A DNA stretch of 64,000 bases, from IMG/VR virus record IMGVR_UViG_3300046812_000216, positions 1-64,000 of that record. One strand, written 5' to 3'. Source of the DNA: a virus. The first letter of the stretch is position 1; every line of letters starts with the position of its first letter. Below the pieces are notes generated by a model that saw only the letters and a list, made by a program, of their open reading frames with translations, ran no database searches and was not told the DNA's origin. Shown here in pieces: positions 42,553-54,754 of the stretch. Made by a program: the position numbers and the translations under genes.

Positions 42553-44190
42553 ATGGGGCTGATTGACCTTCCCAAGAGCATTGACAAGGCGGGCTATCTG
42601 CGCGCGCTGGACAAGCGCCTGTGCGAGGAATCGCTGGCCGAGTTCGTCAAGCGCTCATGGCACGCGGTAGAGCCCCTCCAGCCCTACAAGCACGGCTGGC
42701 ACATAGATTTCATCTGCGAGCATCTGGAGGCCATCACCGCAGGCGAGATCGTCGATGGCGAGCCCTATAACCGCCTGCTGATCAACGTGCCGCCCGGCAC
42801 CATGAAGAGCCTGCTGGTCAACGTGTTCTGGCCCGCATGGGAGTGGGGGCCGAAGAACATGCCCGGCCTGCGCTACGTCTGCGCCAGCCACAGCCTCGCC
42901 CTCGCCATCCGCGACTCGATGCGGATGCGGCGCCTGATCGCGAGCGACTGGTATGTCCGGCACTGGGGCGACCGCGTCATCATCCGCGACGACCAGAACG
43001 CCAAGGGCAAGTTCGAAACCACACAAGCCGGATGGCGCGAGGCCATCGCCGCCGAGTCGATCACCGGCGCCCGTGGCGACCGGGTGATCATCGACGACGC
43101 CCTGTCGGTCGATGACGCCAACAGCGACACGGTGCGCGAGGGCGTCAACCAATGGTTCCGCGAGGCGGTGCCGACCCGGCTCAACAATCCCGACACCTCG
43201 GCGATCATCGTCATCATGCAGCGGCTGCACGAGTCGGACCTGTCTGGCCTGATCTTAGACCAAGGAATGCAATATGATCACGTCATGCTGCCCATGCGCT
43301 ATGACCCCGACCGGGCGGCGCCCACGCGCCTCGGCCTGATGGACATCAGGACCACGGCCGACGAGCTTCTATTTCCGGCGCGCTTCCCGCTGTCGGTCGT
43401 CGTGCGCGATGAAACCATCATGGGGCCGTTCGCCACCGCCGGGCAATTCCAGCAGAGCCCGACCCCGCGCGGCGGCGGCGTCATCAAGGACGCGTGGTGG
43501 CAGCTATGGACGGAACCGACCTTCCCGCCGGTAGACTTCATCGTCGCCAGCCTCGACACCGCCTACGGGCTCAAGGAAGAGAATGACTATTCGGCCCTGA
43601 CCGTCTGGGGCGTGTTTACCGGCGATCCGGGCGTGCGCGCCACCCGCATGGTGGATCGATACGGTCGGCCGAAAGAGGCCTATCAGGGCGCTGCCAGCAC
43701 CATGCTCGACGCGGTTCCTCACGTCATCCTGATGTCGGCGTGGATGGAGCGCCTGCCGGTCCACGAGCTAATCGTCAAGGTCGCGGCTTCATGTCGCGAA
43801 TTGAAGGTTGACCGGCTGCTGATCGAGAACAAGGCCAGCGGCATCAGCGTGGCGCAGGAGATGCGCCGCCTGTTTGGGTTTGAGCCGTGGGCCGTCCACC
43901 TGATTGATCCTAAGTCCATCGACAAGCTGTCGCGGCTCTATAGCGTCCAACACCTGTTCGCCGAAAGCATGATCTACGCGCCAGACCGCGACTGGGCCGA
44001 GATGGTGATTCGCCAGTGCTCGACCTTCCCCAAGGGCAAGCATGACGATCTGGTGGACACCGTCAGCCAAGCTCTCAAGCATATGCGCGAGTGCGGCCTG
44101 CTGACCCGGTCGATAGAACGGCTTGCCGAAATTGATCGCGCTGTTCAGTTTGATAACGTCCGCACGCCACCGCCGCTCTACGACGCATGA
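42553..44190 (+). CDS. terL: Terminase large subunit
   Basis: 545 aa. The ATPase domain has a Walker A variant NVPPGTMKS at 78-86, a RYVCASHS adenine-side motif near 107, and Walker B RVIIDDALS near 177-185. The nuclease domain has the first Asp in VASLDTAYG (D335) and the late acidic pair in KGKHDDLVDTVSQAL near 500. QQSPTPRGGG, before the nuclease, is common in this terminase group. It pumps DNA into the prohead and cuts it. The end type (headful or cos) cannot be told from this. Confidence 0.93.
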   Translation: MGLIDLPKSIDKAGYLRALDKRLCEESLAEFVKRSWHAVEPLQPYKHGWHIDFICEHLEAITAGEIVDGEPYNRLLINVPPGTMKSLLVNVFWPAWEWGPKNMPGLRYVCASHSLALAIRDSMRMRRLIASDWYVRHWGDRVIIRDDQNAKGKFETTQAGWREAIAAESITGARGDRVIIDDALSVDDANSDTVREGVNQWFREAVPTRLNNPDTSAIIVIMQRLHESDLSGLILDQGMQYDHVMLPMRYDPDRAAPTRLGLMDIRTTADELLFPARFPLSVVVRDETIMGPFATAGQFQQSPTPRGGGVIKDAWWQLWTEPTFPPVDFIVASLDTAYGLKEENDYSALTVWGVFTGDPGVRATRMVDRYGRPKEAYQGAASTMLDAVPHVILMSAWMERLPVHELIVKVAASCRELKVDRLLIENKASGISVAQEMRRLFGFEPWAVHLIDPKSIDKLSRLYSVQHLFAESMIYAPDRDWAEMVIRQCSTFPKGKHDDLVDTVSQALKHMRECGLLTRSIERLAEIDRAVQFDNVRTPPPLYDA

Positions 44191-44323
44191 TTGCTTGCAT
44201 GATCCGGGCTCGCGTCGTTAAGATGATCGCGCCGACGCAGGGCGCCGCGTGGTCAGGATTGGCGAGGCAAGGCGCCAGAGGGCGAGGCGTAAAAACTTCG
44301 CCCTCACTTCCACAGGAGATCTC

Positions 44324-45067
44324 ATGCCCCGCATCCCCATGAAACCATCCATCGCCAAGGCTCTCGACGAGACGCACCCGACAGGGCCAGACCTCAATCC
44401 CGGCGGCTATGGCGTCGGCCGATTCGGAGCGTCGCCGGGCGATGACGACATCGGCGCGGATATCGGCCATAGCGAGGCGAAGCTCGATCTGCCCAAGCAG
44501 GCGCCCTCCAAGTTTCCGCCGTTCGACTTCCCGCCGCCGCCGCTGCCGCAACAGCAGCAGGGCGAGCCGACCGCCTTCACCGGCCAGCAGCAGACGGTGA
44601 GCGACGCCATGCTCTACGGCGTGGGATTCACTCGCATCGCCAGCGGCAATGAAGGCGTCGAGGTGACCAATGTCCCGGCGGACGAGGTTCTCTCGCATGG
44701 CGAGGATCTCCTGCCCGGCGGCATGGGCAATGACATCCGTGAGACGCGCCTGCCGGTGCAGGATGTCCTCGTCAGCCACCTCGCCTTTGGCGACGCCATC
44801 CGCGCCATGGAAACCGGCCTCAAGGTCCAGCGCGAGGGATGGAACGGCAAAGGCATGTGGATCGCGCTGTCTGGCCTTGAGGGGGCGCGAGAGGTGCAGG
44901 CGGCCGACCTGTGGTCGGTTCACGCCCGCATCCACGCCCGCGAGCAGGGCGGATCGGCCAAGGTGCTGCCGTGCATCATCATGAAGACCGCGACCGGCGA
45001 GATCCTGATGGGCTGGCTGGCGAGCCAGAGCGACATGCTGGCGAAGGACTGGAGGATTGTGTCATGA
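44324..45067 (+). CDS. Protein with C-terminal Tad2 (DUF2829, Thoeris anti-defence) domain
   Basis: 247 aa with aggag upstream. The C-terminal ~90 residues carry the full DUF2829/Tad2 pattern: AFGDAIRAMETGLKVQREGW, then NGKGMWIALSG, LPCIIMKTATGEILMGWLAS, QSDMLAKDWRIVS. Tad2 proteins bind and sequester the cyclic-ADPR-type signal of Thoeris defence. Residues 1-160 are an extra Pro/Gln-rich and Gly-rich region of unknown role (PPPPLPQQQQGE, GVEVTNVPADEVLSHGEDLL). A hairpin (44279-44304) precedes the gene. It is placed with late genes. Confidence 0.82.
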   Translation: MPRIPMKPSIAKALDETHPTGPDLNPGGYGVGRFGASPGDDDIGADIGHSEAKLDLPKQAPSKFPPFDFPPPPLPQQQQGEPTAFTGQQQTVSDAMLYGVGFTRIASGNEGVEVTNVPADEVLSHGEDLLPGGMGNDIRETRLPVQDVLVSHLAFGDAIRAMETGLKVQREGWNGKGMWIALSGLEGAREVQAADLWSVHARIHAREQGGSAKVLPCIIMKTATGEILMGWLASQSDMLAKDWRIVS

Positions 45068-45285
45068 GCCGCGAAAAGGAAGAGAAACACTTTGTGCCGC
45101 AGCCTGAGCCCCGGCGCCGCGATCCGGAGCCCGATCCCCGGCATCGATATCCGGAGCCGCCGCCCAAGCGCGAGAGGGTAGAGCGCGAGCATGAGGTCGA
45201 GGCCAAGGCAGTCGAGCCGCCGCCGGTCGCGACCACCCGCGAGGTCAAGGACGGCTCGTGGATCAGCAACAGGTTCCGGCGATGA
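45064..45285 (+). CDS. Charged disordered protein (73 aa)
   Basis: Arg/Glu/Pro-rich (EPRRRDPEPDPRHRYPEPPP, then KRERVEREHEVEAKAVEPPP), ATGA-coupled to the Tad2 gene. Probably unstructured; function unknown. Confidence 0.55.
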   Translation: MSREKEEKHFVPQPEPRRRDPEPDPRHRYPEPPPKRERVEREHEVEAKAVEPPPVATTREVKDGSWISNRFRR

Positions 45286-45422
45286 GCGGCGGCGATGTCC
45301 CGCGCCTGAAGGTGGTCCCCAAGACCACCGTCAAGGACTGGCGCAAGAGGGAATTGAAATACAACATCCGGCTGCTGAAGTCGGCGCTGAAGGTGCTTGA
45401 GAAGGAACTGAAGGAACGATGA
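45282..45422 (+). CDS. Small basic helical protein (46 aa)
   Basis: PRLKVVPKTTVKDWRKRELK, then YNIRLLKSALKVLEKELKER: a Lys/Arg-rich amphipathic helix. ATGA-coupled on both sides. Confidence 0.58.
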   Translation: MSGGDVPRLKVVPKTTVKDWRKRELKYNIRLLKSALKVLEKELKER

Positions 45423-45727
45423 CCGACTCCCCCGCCCAACGCCCGGTAACCACACCCAAGGTCGCCCCCATCACCGGCCTGCCCATCGAGACGGCCAAGA
45501 CGCTGTGGTGTCCCTTCGTCAGTCTCGTTGCGGTGCCGCCGGTCGGCGGCGTCGAGCAGATCTCCAACAATCGCGGCATGCGCCTGCACTACGGCGCGAC
45601 CGACACGGACGTGCAGAAGAACATGAACTGCATCGCCACGCGCTGCATGTCATGGATTCCCGACTCCGTCGCGCCGACCACGCACGGCACTTGTCGATTG
45701 ATCACCGGGGCGGGAGTGAAGGTATGA
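45419..45727 (+). CDS. Hypothetical protein
   Basis: 102 aa: PKVAPITGLPIETAKTLWCP, then VSLVAVPPVGGVEQISNNRG. Four Cys, three of them in the second half (NCIATRCMSW, GTCRL), suggest a metal site. Coupled to its neighbours by 4-base overlaps. Confidence 0.58.
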   Translation: MTDSPAQRPVTTPKVAPITGLPIETAKTLWCPFVSLVAVPPVGGVEQISNNRGMRLHYGATDTDVQKNMNCIATRCMSWIPDSVAPTTHGTCRLITGAGVKV

Positions 45728-46209
45728 GCGACAACATCTTCAACGGCCGGTGCGTCGGCGGCCCGTACAACGGCAAGGGTCTGACCCACGACAGGCCGAC
45801 CAAGCTGCTGATCGCGATGAATCACGACAGCCAAGGCGGCGAATATCGCTACATCAACGACAATGAGTGGCTGTGGCATCCGGAACAGAAGGAAGAGCCC
45901 GTGAGCAGACTAGCCGAAGAACAGATCGAGATGCAGATCCGCGAGAACCACAAGACCGCGCCGCGCATCACGCCTGAGATTATCGACCAGCGCATCCGGC
46001 TGGTGAAATACCATCGATTCCCCGACAGCACGCTGATGGTCTGCGCCATCGAATTGATGAACGGCTATCACGTCGTCGGCGAGGCTGGCTGCTCGTCGCC
46101 GATGACCTTCGACGAAACCATCGCCAAGCGCATCGCCTTCGACGACGCCCGCCGCAAGATCTGGGCGCTGGAAGGATACGTTCTTCGCAATGTGCTGGCA
46201 GGGCTCTGA
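45724..46209 (+). CDS. Phage Gp49-like domain protein
   Basis: 161 aa. The N-terminal ~50 residues (NIFNGRCVGGPYNGKGLTHD) form a small separate unit. The C-terminal ~85 match the gp49/gp66 family of unknown function: RITPEIIDQRIRLVKYHRFP, AIELMNGYHVVGEAGCSSPM, KIWALEGYVLRNVLAGL. Start ATG overlaps the previous stop. Confidence 0.7.
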   Translation: MSDNIFNGRCVGGPYNGKGLTHDRPTKLLIAMNHDSQGGEYRYINDNEWLWHPEQKEEPVSRLAEEQIEMQIRENHKTAPRITPEIIDQRIRLVKYHRFPDSTLMVCAIELMNGYHVVGEAGCSSPMTFDETIAKRIAFDDARRKIWALEGYVLRNVLAGL

Positions 46210-46247: not shown

Positions 46248-46511
46248 ATGCTGATCAAAGCTCCGATCCTCTGCTCCGCCACGGTCGATTGGGTTCGCCT
46301 CGGCGAATCCAGAGGCCTGCCGTTCAATCGCAACAAATGGCGCGTTACGGTGCTCGGCAGGCCGCCATATGCCAAGACGCGGATCTATGACATTATCGCG
46401 CGCAGCGACGACGAAGCCGCCCGCGAGGGCATGAGCATGTTCGTCGCCGACATGGAAGGCGAAGACGATGCCGCTTGTCCCCGGAGCCAACTCGAACATC
46501 CGACTGCATGA
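46248..46511 (+). CDS. Small hypothetical protein
   Basis: 87 aa: WRVTVLGRPPYAKTRIYDII, then ARSDDEAAREGMSMFVADME. It overlaps the portal start by 44 bases. No family is assigned. Confidence 0.58.
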   Translation: MLIKAPILCSATVDWVRLGESRGLPFNRNKWRVTVLGRPPYAKTRIYDIIARSDDEAAREGMSMFVADMEGEDDAACPRSQLEHPTA

Positions 46512-48981
46512 CGCGGAGCCGGGCGCCGTCAAGCCGCGCCTGTCCATCGTCCATTCCGAGTCCGACAACGAGCCCGACGACTCGCCCCAGTTCGACGACA
46601 AGGGCGCAATCCTCCGCATCGAGCACCCCGATGGCTCTATCACCGTCAGCCTCGACGGGCGGCCCATTGAGGAGCCGCGCAAGGCGAAGTCCGGCTGGTT
46701 CGCCAACCTCGTGGACGACATCGACCCGCTCGAACTGGCGCGCATCGCCGACGACCTGATCCGGGGCGTCGAGGACGATCTCCAGTCCCGGCAGGAGTGG
46801 ATCGAGGAGCGCGCCCAAGGCATCAAGCTCCTAGGCTTCAAGATCGAGATCCCCAACATCCAAGGCGCGGCCGATGGCGCGCCGGTCGAGGGCATGTCCA
46901 AGGTCCGCCACCCGATCCTGCAAGAGGCGGTGCTGCGCTTCCAAGCCAACGCCCGGTCGGAGTTCCTGCCCACCGATGGCCCGGTCAAGATCCGCGACGA
47001 CGCCAACGGCTCCGACCTCCAGCGCGACCAGCAGGCCAATGCGCTGGAGAAAGACCTCAATCACTATCTCACGACGACCGCGACCGAATTCGTGCCGGAC
47101 ACCGACAAGATGTTCCTGATGCTCGGCTTCGGCGGCACCAGCTTCAAGAAGGTCTACAACTGCCCGCTGCGCAACCGCCCGGTCAGCGAGACGGTGGACG
47201 CCAACGATCTGATCGTCAACGACTCGGCGACCGACCTAGCCAACGCCAAGCGCATCACCCACCGCAACATGATGAAGCCATCGACCGTCCGGCGCATGCA
47301 GATCCTCGGCGCCTACAAGGACATCGACCTCTCGACGCCCAAGCAGCAGACGCTCGACGCGGCGCAGGAGGCGGCGAAGGCGCAGCAGGGCGTGACGCCA
47401 TCGACCATGCGGCCGGAAGATCGTGATCGCCAGATCTACGAGTGCTATTGCGAACTGGACATCAAGGGATATGAGCACAAGTACAAAGGCAAGATTTCAG
47501 GGCTAGAAATCCCGTATAGAGTGACAATCGATGAGTCCAGCAGAGAAATTCTTTCCATCGTCAGGAATTACGACGAAGACACCAAAGAACTCCCTGTGGC
47601 CCGCGACAACTTTATAAAATACACATACATTCCCGGCTTTGGTTTCTACGATATCGGACTGCTCCATATCCTCGGCAACACGACCAACGCGATCACGGCA
47701 GCATGGCGAGAGCTTTTAGACGCTGGAATGTTCAACAATTTCCCCGGCTTCCTGATGGCGGACACGGGGGCGCGGCAGAACACGAACATCTTCCGAGTCC
47801 CGCCGGGCGGCGGCGCCTTGGTAAAGACCGGCGGCCTACCCATAAATCAGGCCATCATGCCCTTGCCCTACCAGCCGCCGAGTCAGGCGCTGATGGCGCT
47901 GGTGCAGGACATGGCGCAGACGGGCCAGCGGGTCGGCGGCACCAGCGAGCAGCCGGTCGGCGAGGGCAAGGCCGATTCCCCGGTCGGCACCACGCTGGCG
48001 CTGATCGAGCAGGCCACCAAGATCCTCAACAGCGTCCACAAGCGCATGCATGCCGCGCAGTCGCGCGAGCTTGAACTGATCGTCCGCTGCTTCAAGGAGA
48101 ACCCGACCGCCTTCTGGCAGAAGAACAAGACCCCGGCCTTGCCGTGGGACCAAGCGACCTTCCTCAAGGCGCTGGATGACGCCAACCTTGTCCCGGTGGC
48201 CGACCCCAACACCTCCAGCCACATCCAGCGGGTGATGAAGATCATGGCGCTGAAGCAGCTACAGGGCGCGAGCCCGGCGCTTTATGATCCAATAGCAATT
48301 GATATTGCAGCTTTGCAAGCATTAGGCTTCAACAACCCGCAACAATTCATGGCTCCTCCGCAAGCGCAGGCCGCGCCGCCGCCAGAACTACTTAAACAGC
48401 AGGCTGAAACTCAAGCTAAAACTATGACTGCTCAAGCAACGATGCTTAAAGCTCAAGCCGACGCCGAGAAATCAAAGGCGGAAGTCGGCGCGATCAACGC
48501 CGGGGCCGGGCAGACCGATGGTTCCGGCCAGCAGATCGACACGCCCGTCGATCACCACCTCGCCGAAACCAAGAGGCTGGAGGCGGAAACCAAGCAGACG
48601 ACGGCGCAGCACAACCTGACGCTGGCGCAGGCTAAAGTTCAGGCTGAACTGATGAATTCCCAAACGCGCGCCCAAGAGTTGCAACTCAAAGTTGCTGGGA
48701 CGCACATGGACGACGCCCACCATCAGGAGGAGCTACAGGCCAAGCAGCGCGAAAGCACCATGAACCTCGCCAAGGAGGTCATGCAGAGCAAGGCCGAAAA
48801 CCACCGCACGCTGGCGATTGAGGGCGCGGCGCACGAGCACGACCAAGCCATGCAGGCCCGCGATCACGCCCACGATCACAAGATCGAGACGGTGAAGCAG
48901 AACACCGCTGTCCGGGTCGCCAAGGCGCGGCCGAAACCCGTTGCCAAGGCTCCCGCCAAACCCAAGCCGAAGGCCAAGTGA
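46468..48981 (+). CDS. Portal protein
   Basis: 837 aa. The core resembles podovirus portals: VRHPILQEAVLRFQANARSE, then FLPTDGPVKI, LMLGFGGTSFKKVYNCPLRN, and FGFYDIGLLHILGNTTNAIT. The last ~170 residues are Gln/Ala/Lys-rich helices (QQAETQAKTMTAQATMLKAQ) ending in a Lys/Pro tail, probably the disordered or barrel-helix part. Twelve copies form the DNA gateway of the head. Position after the terminase and before large virion genes supports this. Confidence 0.85.
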   Translation: MPLVPGANSNIRLHDAEPGAVKPRLSIVHSESDNEPDDSPQFDDKGAILRIEHPDGSITVSLDGRPIEEPRKAKSGWFANLVDDIDPLELARIADDLIRGVEDDLQSRQEWIEERAQGIKLLGFKIEIPNIQGAADGAPVEGMSKVRHPILQEAVLRFQANARSEFLPTDGPVKIRDDANGSDLQRDQQANALEKDLNHYLTTTATEFVPDTDKMFLMLGFGGTSFKKVYNCPLRNRPVSETVDANDLIVNDSATDLANAKRITHRNMMKPSTVRRMQILGAYKDIDLSTPKQQTLDAAQEAAKAQQGVTPSTMRPEDRDRQIYECYCELDIKGYEHKYKGKISGLEIPYRVTIDESSREILSIVRNYDEDTKELPVARDNFIKYTYIPGFGFYDIGLLHILGNTTNAITAAWRELLDAGMFNNFPGFLMADTGARQNTNIFRVPPGGGALVKTGGLPINQAIMPLPYQPPSQALMALVQDMAQTGQRVGGTSEQPVGEGKADSPVGTTLALIEQATKILNSVHKRMHAAQSRELELIVRCFKENPTAFWQKNKTPALPWDQATFLKALDDANLVPVADPNTSSHIQRVMKIMALKQLQGASPALYDPIAIDIAALQALGFNNPQQFMAPPQAQAAPPPELLKQQAETQAKTMTAQATMLKAQADAEKSKAEVGAINAGAGQTDGSGQQIDTPVDHHLAETKRLEAETKQTTAQHNLTLAQAKVQAELMNSQTRAQELQLKVAGTHMDDAHHQEELQAKQRESTMNLAKEVMQSKAENHRTLAIEGAAHEHDQAMQARDHAHDHKIETVKQNTAVRVAKARPKPVAKAPAKPKPKAK

Positions 48982-54015: not shown

Positions 54016-54028
54016 TAGGAGATGAATG

Positions 54029-54754
54029 ATGGTTTTTCGTCGTGTTGTAATTCGCGGAGTGGCCGAAATCGGCGAAGTGGACGTGACTGGTCCCGTCGAT
54101 CCCGGCTTTGGCCGCCCCGGTGGCGGCGGTCGTCCGGATCAGGGTCTGCCCGGCTACGGTCACCCGGATCAGGATCTGCCGGGCTATGGTCACCCGGATC
54201 AGGGACTGCCCGGCTATGGTCACCCCGATCAGGGTCTGCCCGGCAGGCGCCCGCACCCCGATCAAGGCCTTCCCGGCTATGGTCATCCGGATCAGGGTCT
54301 TCCGGGCTATGGTCATCCCGACCACGGCTTGCCCGGCTATGGTCATCCGGATCAGGGTCTGCCCGGCCTGCCGGTCTACCCCAGTCAGGGACCGATCCTT
54401 CCCGCCGCCCCCGGCCATCCGATTCCAGTGCCGCGCATCCCGGTGGTCAGCGTCATCCCGCTGCCCGAAGGCGAAGTGCTCCCGACTGAACCGCCGCACC
54501 GGCCCGGTAGGATCGCCGTGGTCGTCGATGGCGAAACCAAGGCTGTCGGCTGGCTTCAGGGCTCCGACGACCTTCCGGTCGCCGCGCCCAAGGGCGAAGC
54601 GCCGGTCCCCGGCGGCCACTGGGTGGCGGTCGAAGTCAATCCGCAGGCAAGGCCCAAGAAATGCGGCGACGGCAGCGATGGCGTCGGCAAGACCGGCTTT
54701 GCGTGGGTGTTCGAGGTGAAGCCCGACTGGGGAACGGAGCCGACCCCGGTCTAA
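54029..54754 (+). CDS. Repeat protein with tandem PDQGLPGYGH units
   Basis: 241 aa. aggag lies 7 bases before this ATG; another ATG is one codon upstream. After residue 35 there are about nine copies of a 9-residue unit (PDQGLPGYGH-type), one variant (GRRPHPDQGLP) breaking the series. The C-terminal ~110 residues are a separate unit (RIAVVVDGETKAVGWLQGSD, then GKTGFAWVFEVKPDWG). The 27-base DNA repeat is nearly exact and could change copy number. Function unknown. Confidence 0.7.
   Translation: MVFRRVVIRGVAEIGEVDVTGPVDPGFGRPGGGGRPDQGLPGYGHPDQDLPGYGHPDQGLPGYGHPDQGLPGRRPHPDQGLPGYGHPDQGLPGYGHPDHGLPGYGHPDQGLPGLPVYPSQGPILPAAPGHPIPVPRIPVVSVIPLPEGEVLPTEPPHRPGRIAVVVDGETKAVGWLQGSDDLPVAAPKGEAPVPGGHWVAVEVNPQARPKKCGDGSDGVGKTGFAWVFEVKPDWGTEPTPV

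Follow-up and report, generated by a model that had tools for sequence, protein, structure and literature searches.

What does a Tad2 domain, carried at the end of a long N-terminal extension, do in a gene that lies between the terminase and portal genes of a phage? The question is raised by an open reading frame at 44324-45067 of the 64,000-nucleotide stretch of viral DNA analysed here (the window). This gene occupies a site bordered on the left by the terminase large subunit gene (terL, 42553-44190; phrog_38, E 7.4e-75) and on the right by a portal gene of the SU10 type (46468-48981; PF23899, E 3.2e-14 when searched from 46501), and it is separated from the latter by three to four small genes. 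A sequence-only reading had placed the gene in a late operon; the order of terL, Tad2 and portal holds, with all three on the plus strand, as are the other genes of the interval, and the label late derives from gene order only.

The frame is uninterrupted from its ATG through the stop codon and encodes 247 residues, and a Shine-Dalgarno sequence (AGGAG, 44314-44318) stands five bases ahead of the ATG. Scored against the structural genes of the phage, in-frame codon log-odds per codon are 0.35 and 0.32 for the two halves of the extension compared with 0.33 for the Tad2 part, and the five other frames of the interval score lower (at most 0.16). The extension is coding sequence, on the basis of this codon usage, the Shine-Dalgarno sequence and the selection against non-synonymous change described below, and the same evidence for translation from 44324 ruled out a mis-called start. 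An additional short form could still arise from an internal start, such as the ATG at 44723, upstream of which inspection by eye found no good Shine-Dalgarno sequence. Immediately 5' of the Shine-Dalgarno sequence of the gene lies a 10-pair RNA hairpin with one G-U pair (44278-44305). The 146-nt region containing it has a folding z of -2.64, equalled by 4 of 200 shuffles, and the hairpin is not conserved in the related locus L101, since the gap between terL and Tad2 is much shorter there.

The Tad2 (DUF2829) domain recognised in the initial reading was confirmed at residues 151-247 (44774-45064), with PF11195 matching residues 155-246 (E 5.5e-21; 75.3 bits against a cut-off of 25). Structure prediction of the full-length protein with AlphaFold2 gave a clear result for this part, a Tad2 fold with pLDDT block means of 85-98 (about 95), and low confidence for residues 1-150. 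Comparison of the domain with known structures returned ten Tad2 structures at Z 11.7-13.4, the next entry having Z 5.2, and a Foldseek search with the full-length model gave Tad2 entries only below E 0.001. The matches include SptTad2 in its cGG complex (Z 13.4, rmsd 2.2, 95 residues aligned), HgmTad2/AcrIIA7 (Z 13.2, rmsd 2.5, 92 aligned), ModTad2 (Z 12.4, rmsd 2.7, 86 aligned) and SPO1 Tad2 (Z 11.8, rmsd 2.3, 76 aligned). The window domain resembles SptTad2 and HgmTad2/AcrIIA7 (8wjd and 8kbi-8kbk, solved with cGG and cADPR according to the entry titles) in sequence, at 36-39% identity, and in a long insert after the second strand, which in the model spans about 31 residues (about 184-214) before the core sheet. 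The length of this insert is like that of SptTad2 and HgmTad2, with 95 and 92 residues aligning with 8wjd and 8kbi. SPO1 Tad2 (8sme-8smg) and ModTad2 (9eib, 8v3e) share the core fold (Z 11.7-12.4) but are single-domain proteins with a shorter insert and 73-88 residues aligned, the number being only 73-76 for 8v3e and 8sme-8smg. Unlike the window protein, the solved SptTad2 and HgmTad2 chains lack a 150-residue low-confidence tail; in the AcrIIA7 chain 9kzr the domain occupies residues 42-150 of 158, and part of the ~41 residues ahead of it is perhaps a tag. A Tad2 protein is likewise present in a podovirus of an alphaproteobacterium, the Sinorhizobium phage AP-20-A, where, in the available text (PMC13299392), it is 97 residues long and lacks the extension of the window protein; neither 'Acb4' nor 'PF13876' appears in the main text of that article.

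Loss of the ligand-site residues had been named as the observation that would speak against a Tad2 assignment, and no such loss was seen in a 68-row alignment, where all nine invariant positions (G165, R170, G172, W173, N174, G175, W179, W231 and D237) and 14 nearly invariant ones are kept. The b1-b2 loop (GWNGKGM) and the b4-a3 stretch (WLASQSD) hold several of the invariant residues. A review, in its accessible sections, names the equivalent loops as the gcADPR pocket and describes cyclic dinucleotides as binding Tad2 through an insert of the kind found here, separate from that pocket (PMC12043709). The accessible part of a study of SPO1 reports that its Tad2 does not bind 3'3'-cGAMP (PMC11722364).

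The small genes that follow include a member of a second known sponge family. The gene at 45724-46209 encodes 161 residues and combines an N-terminal module (about residues 9-60), here termed GGP after its GGPxxGKGL stretch, with an Acb4/Phage_gp49_66 domain (residues 82-156; PF13876, E 4.8e-21, 75.5 bits against a cut-off of 27). The best PDB match of its model is SPO1 Acb4 (9e4w; Z 10.8, rmsd 2.4 over 74 residues), followed by an entry at Z 8.6; the 13 top Foldseek rows are all Acb4 (E 0.001-0.006), and a profile search recovers Acb4 among PDB sequences (E 7.9e-9). The protein thus shares family and fold with SPO1 Acb4 and differs from it in carrying the GGP module. PF13876 is described as the Acb4 family in the available text of the SPO1 study, where eight of eight purified homologs bound 3'3'-cGAMP (PMC11722364). 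Of the contacts named for SPO1 Acb4, our reading of the alignment finds F62 and I66 retained and F48 replaced by Y; five others are changed (K36 to T, E49 to H, Y57 to S, T70 to I and K81 to A), so the ligand of the window protein may differ. Two Acb4-family genes in other phages, at 1462-1884 of the Klebsiella phage phi1_146050 locus (L110) and 1495-2244 of the phage FKP14 locus (L113), are annotated 'anti-CRISPR protein', a label perhaps carried over from a neighbouring family.

The remaining genes of the interval are a 73-residue low-complexity ORF (45064-45285), which starts across the Tad2 stop codon, is conserved in part in L102 and has no Pfam or PHROG match; a 102-residue gene (45419-45727), which is 53-77% identical in L101, L102 and L142, belongs to no Pfam or PHROG family and is a candidate for a further island function; and a small portal-adjacent gene (46248-46511), which is kept in most relatives, including those without sponges. 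The 102-residue product shows a WCPF...NCIATRCMSW pattern. At the position of the window Acb4 gene, L101 encodes two GGP modules followed by an Acb2_Tad1_hairpin domain (PF24729, E 7.6e-14), and PF13876 was not found in the L101 record; in L122 it is Tad2 that is preceded by a GGP module. The GGP module is therefore found joined to members of three sponge families in the same interval. L101 also carries a second Tad2 gene, with a tail of HPDQGLP repeats. Elsewhere in the window, an ORF at 54026-54754 contains many HPDQGLPGYG-type repeats like those of that tail, and relatives of the entire ORF occur in L142 and L143.

Across related phages, the gap between terL and portal is a variable cargo site. 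Caulobacter, Roseobacter and Paracoccus phages are among the closest named records by portal or terL. Both borders were in view in 18 loci (15 of the 22 loci of one set, together with L143, L145 and MW202675, designated L219). Tad2 is present in nine of these, several of them from identical or near-identical phages (the window, L001, L003, L101, L102, L122, L123, L143 and L145), and was not found in the other nine (L125-L129, L131, L132, L134 and L219). The interval shrinks to only about 270 bp in L128 and L129, and in Rhizobium phage RHph_X3_2 the portal gene follows terL directly. Other cargo includes a gene for a 336-residue calcineurin-like phosphoesterase (L127, 4092-5102; L131, 2566-3576), identified by PF00149 at E 1.8e-8 in a Pfam run on L127 only, and, in L219, a gene annotated as dCTP deaminase/dUTPase together with a dGTP_diPhyd_N domain. 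The site is thus not specific for sponges: nine of the 18 loci lack Tad2, and some of them hold other cargo. In 27 records of the portal group, many of them short fragments, Tad2 occurs in 12, Acb4 in 12 and Acb2 in one. An ORF at 4488-4913 of L122 encodes 141 residues rich in alanine and proline, has no Pfam match and ends in what appears to be a broken Tad2 remnant (LSFGQALKAL...DDWRVF).

The proximity of Tad2 and Acb4 recurs beyond this group. We examined 50 Tad2 records picked without regard to Acb4 from 61 loci, themselves a selection from 80; the eleven left out (L019, L032, L040, L050, L057, L067, L069, L073, L075, L076 and L079) include near-duplicates and others that are not. Acb4 was present in 11 of the 50 records, in every case within 0-334 bp of Tad2 and on the same strand, and in one of these, L012, the two are fused, PF13876 preceding PF11195. 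Random placement of Acb4 in records of such lengths gives a product of chances of about 1e-15, a figure that indicates scale only because Tad2 records are not independent. The Acb2 hairpin was found in five of the 50, four times at 24-677 bp from Tad2 and once at about 19 kb. In Klebsiella phage phi1_146050 and Escherichia phage E20, Acb4 adjoins an extended Tad2 or stands one small gene apart from it. Viewed from the other side, nine of 79 Acb4 loci (80 less L001, the phage of the window) have Tad2 in the fetched flanks, at gaps of 11-4,306 bp and always on the same strand; four of the nine belong to the clade of the window, and L182 is the contig already counted as L013. No Tad2 was found in the fetched flanks of the other 70, so the pairing recurs but most Acb4 genes stand without it. 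SPO1 is reported to have both genes, and the open-access literature on Tad2, Thoeris and Acb4, as far as its text was available, describes no linkage of the two beyond their joint presence in that phage.

The view that an extension is unusual for Tad2 was not borne out. PHROG 872, 1048 and 30130 are N-terminally extended, and a scripted rule, in which the choice of start is heuristic, found an upstream extension in 25 of the 50 viral Tad2 records: 18 of GTK type (L011 being classed by motif, since its chosen start gives no extension), two of PGD type, one Acb4 and four others of at least 40 residues, the remaining 25 records having fewer than 40. In PHROG 872 and 1048, as in the window protein, a C-terminal Tad2 domain follows an N-terminal part, there of 86-110 positions. 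In one Tad2 protein (L016, 5776-6504) the GTK domain is accompanied by an extension at the C-terminus, about 75 residues long.

The extension of the window protein, residues 1-150 (44324-44773), is rich in P and Q. Its fusion to a Tad2-family domain in the terL-portal setting, as first proposed, was upheld, and no known family accounts for it: it contains no Pfam family at E up to 10 and no PHROG beyond one chance-level match (E 0.45), and a search of 50,697 phage records gave no match up to E 1. Searched alone against IMG/VR, the tail matched only the identical contigs of the same phage (L001-L003) and L004. A match of Vibrio phage ValKK3 to residues 111-245 spans two annotated genes and was given no weight. 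Model confidence is low, with pLDDT block means of 37-74 and values below 50 at residues 5-46, 92-105 and 141-148, which may partly reflect an alignment in which only five rows cover the tail in full or in part. As to the earlier suggestion that the extension adds another activity, no evidence of a second enzymatic one was found, given this low confidence and the lack of a Pfam or PHROG family. As modelled, the extension looks like a mostly disordered tail composed of an N-terminal motif, a linker of variable length and a swapped segment.

The motif, MKPSIAKALDETHPTGP, lies at residues 6-22 (44339-44389). The form [IM]K[PS]SIxxAL with DE[TA]HP is common to the window, L005/L101, L102 (the L006 contig; L101 is the L077 contig) and the first Tad2 gene of L143, four lineages in all, terL of the relatives being only 61-66% identical to that of the window. 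L123, L004 and the second Tad2 gene of L143 lack it. The number of residues ahead of the Tad2 domain varies from about 57 in L004 to 73 in L102, 146 in L005 and 156 in L101.

The segment nearer to the Tad2 domain behaves as a unit of exchange. Over 4,211 bp ending within the tail, L005 and L101 share 98.96% identity. There follow 100 bp in one and 130 bp in the other that are unrelated but keep the reading frame, and beyond these the identity is 97.55% over 490 bp. Outside the swap, the two tails differ by seven synonymous changes and one non-synonymous change (dN/dS about 0.05, Fisher p 0.0003), and the Tad2 parts by eight synonymous changes and no non-synonymous one. This comparison, the one contig pair in which the swap was seen, indicates that 33 or 43 codons were exchanged en bloc and that the remainder is under strong selection. 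In the window, the comparison with relatives places the matching cassette at residues 93-126 (approximately 44600-44701), which contain DAMLYGVGFTRIASGNEGVEVTN; the stretch first singled out in the extension, VTNVPADEVLSHGEDLL, was located at residues 114-130. The L101 segment has a relative in the L102 tail (HPLQTPxQRQNMExL; E 9e-8 in the relative G016, which carries the L101-type cassette once), and the L005 segment has DAMLYGxGxxR in common with the window, a short match not reported by the record search. The segment of the window itself, GFTRIASGNEGVEVTN, occurs also in L004 (E 5e-9) and L143, and its GFTRI/NEGV motif is common to both.

In L143, a segment of the window type precedes a different, degenerate Tad2 domain, in which AWSGRW replaces GWNGKGM and which still matches PF11195 (E 3.4e-13). 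Two Tad2 genes stand in tandem in L143, L142 and L004, and the single Tad2 gene of the window unites the tail type of the first tandem gene with the domain type of the second. From these sequences, the natural inference is that the window gene would be a chimera formed by recombination between tandem copies. No silent store of cassettes was found, each cassette occurring once per its own record in the seven records searched.

Considered together, these observations make it probable that the locus encodes a flexible-tailed Tad2 sponge within a terL-portal sponge cluster that blunts Thoeris and CBASS, the tail serving as a tether. We infer ligand binding, a tetramer and the tether role for the window protein. 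Judged from its sequence, sequestration of ADP-ribose signals made by TIR proteins is the most likely function: the Tad2 part, predicted here as a single chain, would assemble into the usual tetramer and hold gcADPR or His-ADPR, and ADP-ribose signal binding is reported for SPO1 and Myroides Tad2 in the available text of PMC12043709 and PMC13299392. Since the insert is as long as in SptTad2 and HgmTad2, the tetramer might also hold cyclic dinucleotides. The downstream Acb4 protein would hold cGAMP-type CBASS signals, and the two proteins could jointly blunt both defences. The tail would most likely bind no signal and act as a tether, with its conserved motif at the start and its exchangeable segment near the sponge domain, and may fix or expose the sponge at a partner.

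A broader proposal, possible but tentative, is that the site is a sponge cassette system in which Tad2, Acb4 and Acb2 are swapped behind common modules; the tail would then combine a docking motif with a recombining segment diversified for a partner (the head, DNA or a defence complex) or for escape from a host sensor. If instead the tail were functionless, it would be relaxed sequence at a recombination site that does the sponge no harm. This agrees with the lack of a known domain, with a length of 57 to 156 residues and a composition that vary among relatives, and with short tails on other Tad2 genes of the group, such as the second one in L143. It is made unlikely by the strong purifying selection seen outside the swap (seven synonymous against one non-synonymous change) and by survival of the N-terminal motif at a terL identity of 61-66%.

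We regard as comparably doubtful the alternative that the tail holds a small folded domain for binding a signal or a protein, a shortened form of the PHROG 872 N-terminal domain. The model does contain a helix (residues 87-98) and a hairpin (102-117) beside a further helix (119-123), in an order that by eye is like that expected of a GTK-type domain, at a pLDDT of about 44-58. The N-terminal part of PHROG 872 is a conserved GTK-type domain, L013 matching positions 13-172 of that family, and a domain of this type also appears to precede Acb4 in PHROG 9467: the GTK-type domain at the N-terminus of the L013 Tad2 protein corresponds to the first half of PHROG 9467 and the Acb4 domain of the window to its second half, a sign that this family joins GTK to Acb4 as PHROG 872 joins it to Tad2. 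Against a folded domain stand the low model confidence and the confinement of the PHROG 872 match of the window protein to residues 151-246. Searches of PHROGs with residues 1-158 or 76-158 gave no match to the GTK domain of PHROG 872.

Less probable again is the idea, raised at the outset, that the tail is a virion-targeting signal, by which a sponge made late would be packaged with the head through its motif, delivered with the DNA and able to mop up early signals. The position between terL and portal, in structural gene order, is in its favour, as is a conserved N-terminal motif with a linker of variable length between it and the sponge. That position also suggests late expression, a poor fit for a sponge and a point against the preferred reading, and late synthesis would presumably otherwise come after most signalling; the cGAMP-binding activity of SPO1 is reported to appear early in the accessible text of PMC11722364. 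However, a pattern search of the other ORFs in the window and in the loci of six relatives did not find the motif, so no common virion signal is seen. It is very improbable that the Tad2 domain has lost signal binding and is a structural or assembly part of the virion, as a late gene position and the degenerate Tad2 copies in the same slot of L143, L142 and L004 might suggest, since the window copy keeps all family-invariant positions and two other sponge families occur in the island or its relatives.

The Tad2 and Acb4 families and extended Tad2 proteins are already known. The segment-swapped tail, the exchange of Acb4, Acb2 and Tad2 behind common modules and the Tad2-Acb4 neighbourhood are not described in the searched open-access literature, to the extent that its text was available. 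Tad2, Acb2 and Acb4 have mostly been studied singly, as single small proteins, and here the sponges are interchangeable domains on common N-terminal modules in one slot of the structural gene order. If this is true, the neighbours of Tad2 and the GGP and GTK modules would provide a short list of places to search for additional sponges, and the manner and timing of sponge delivery by a phage could be tested with a single gene and a version of it that lacks the tail.
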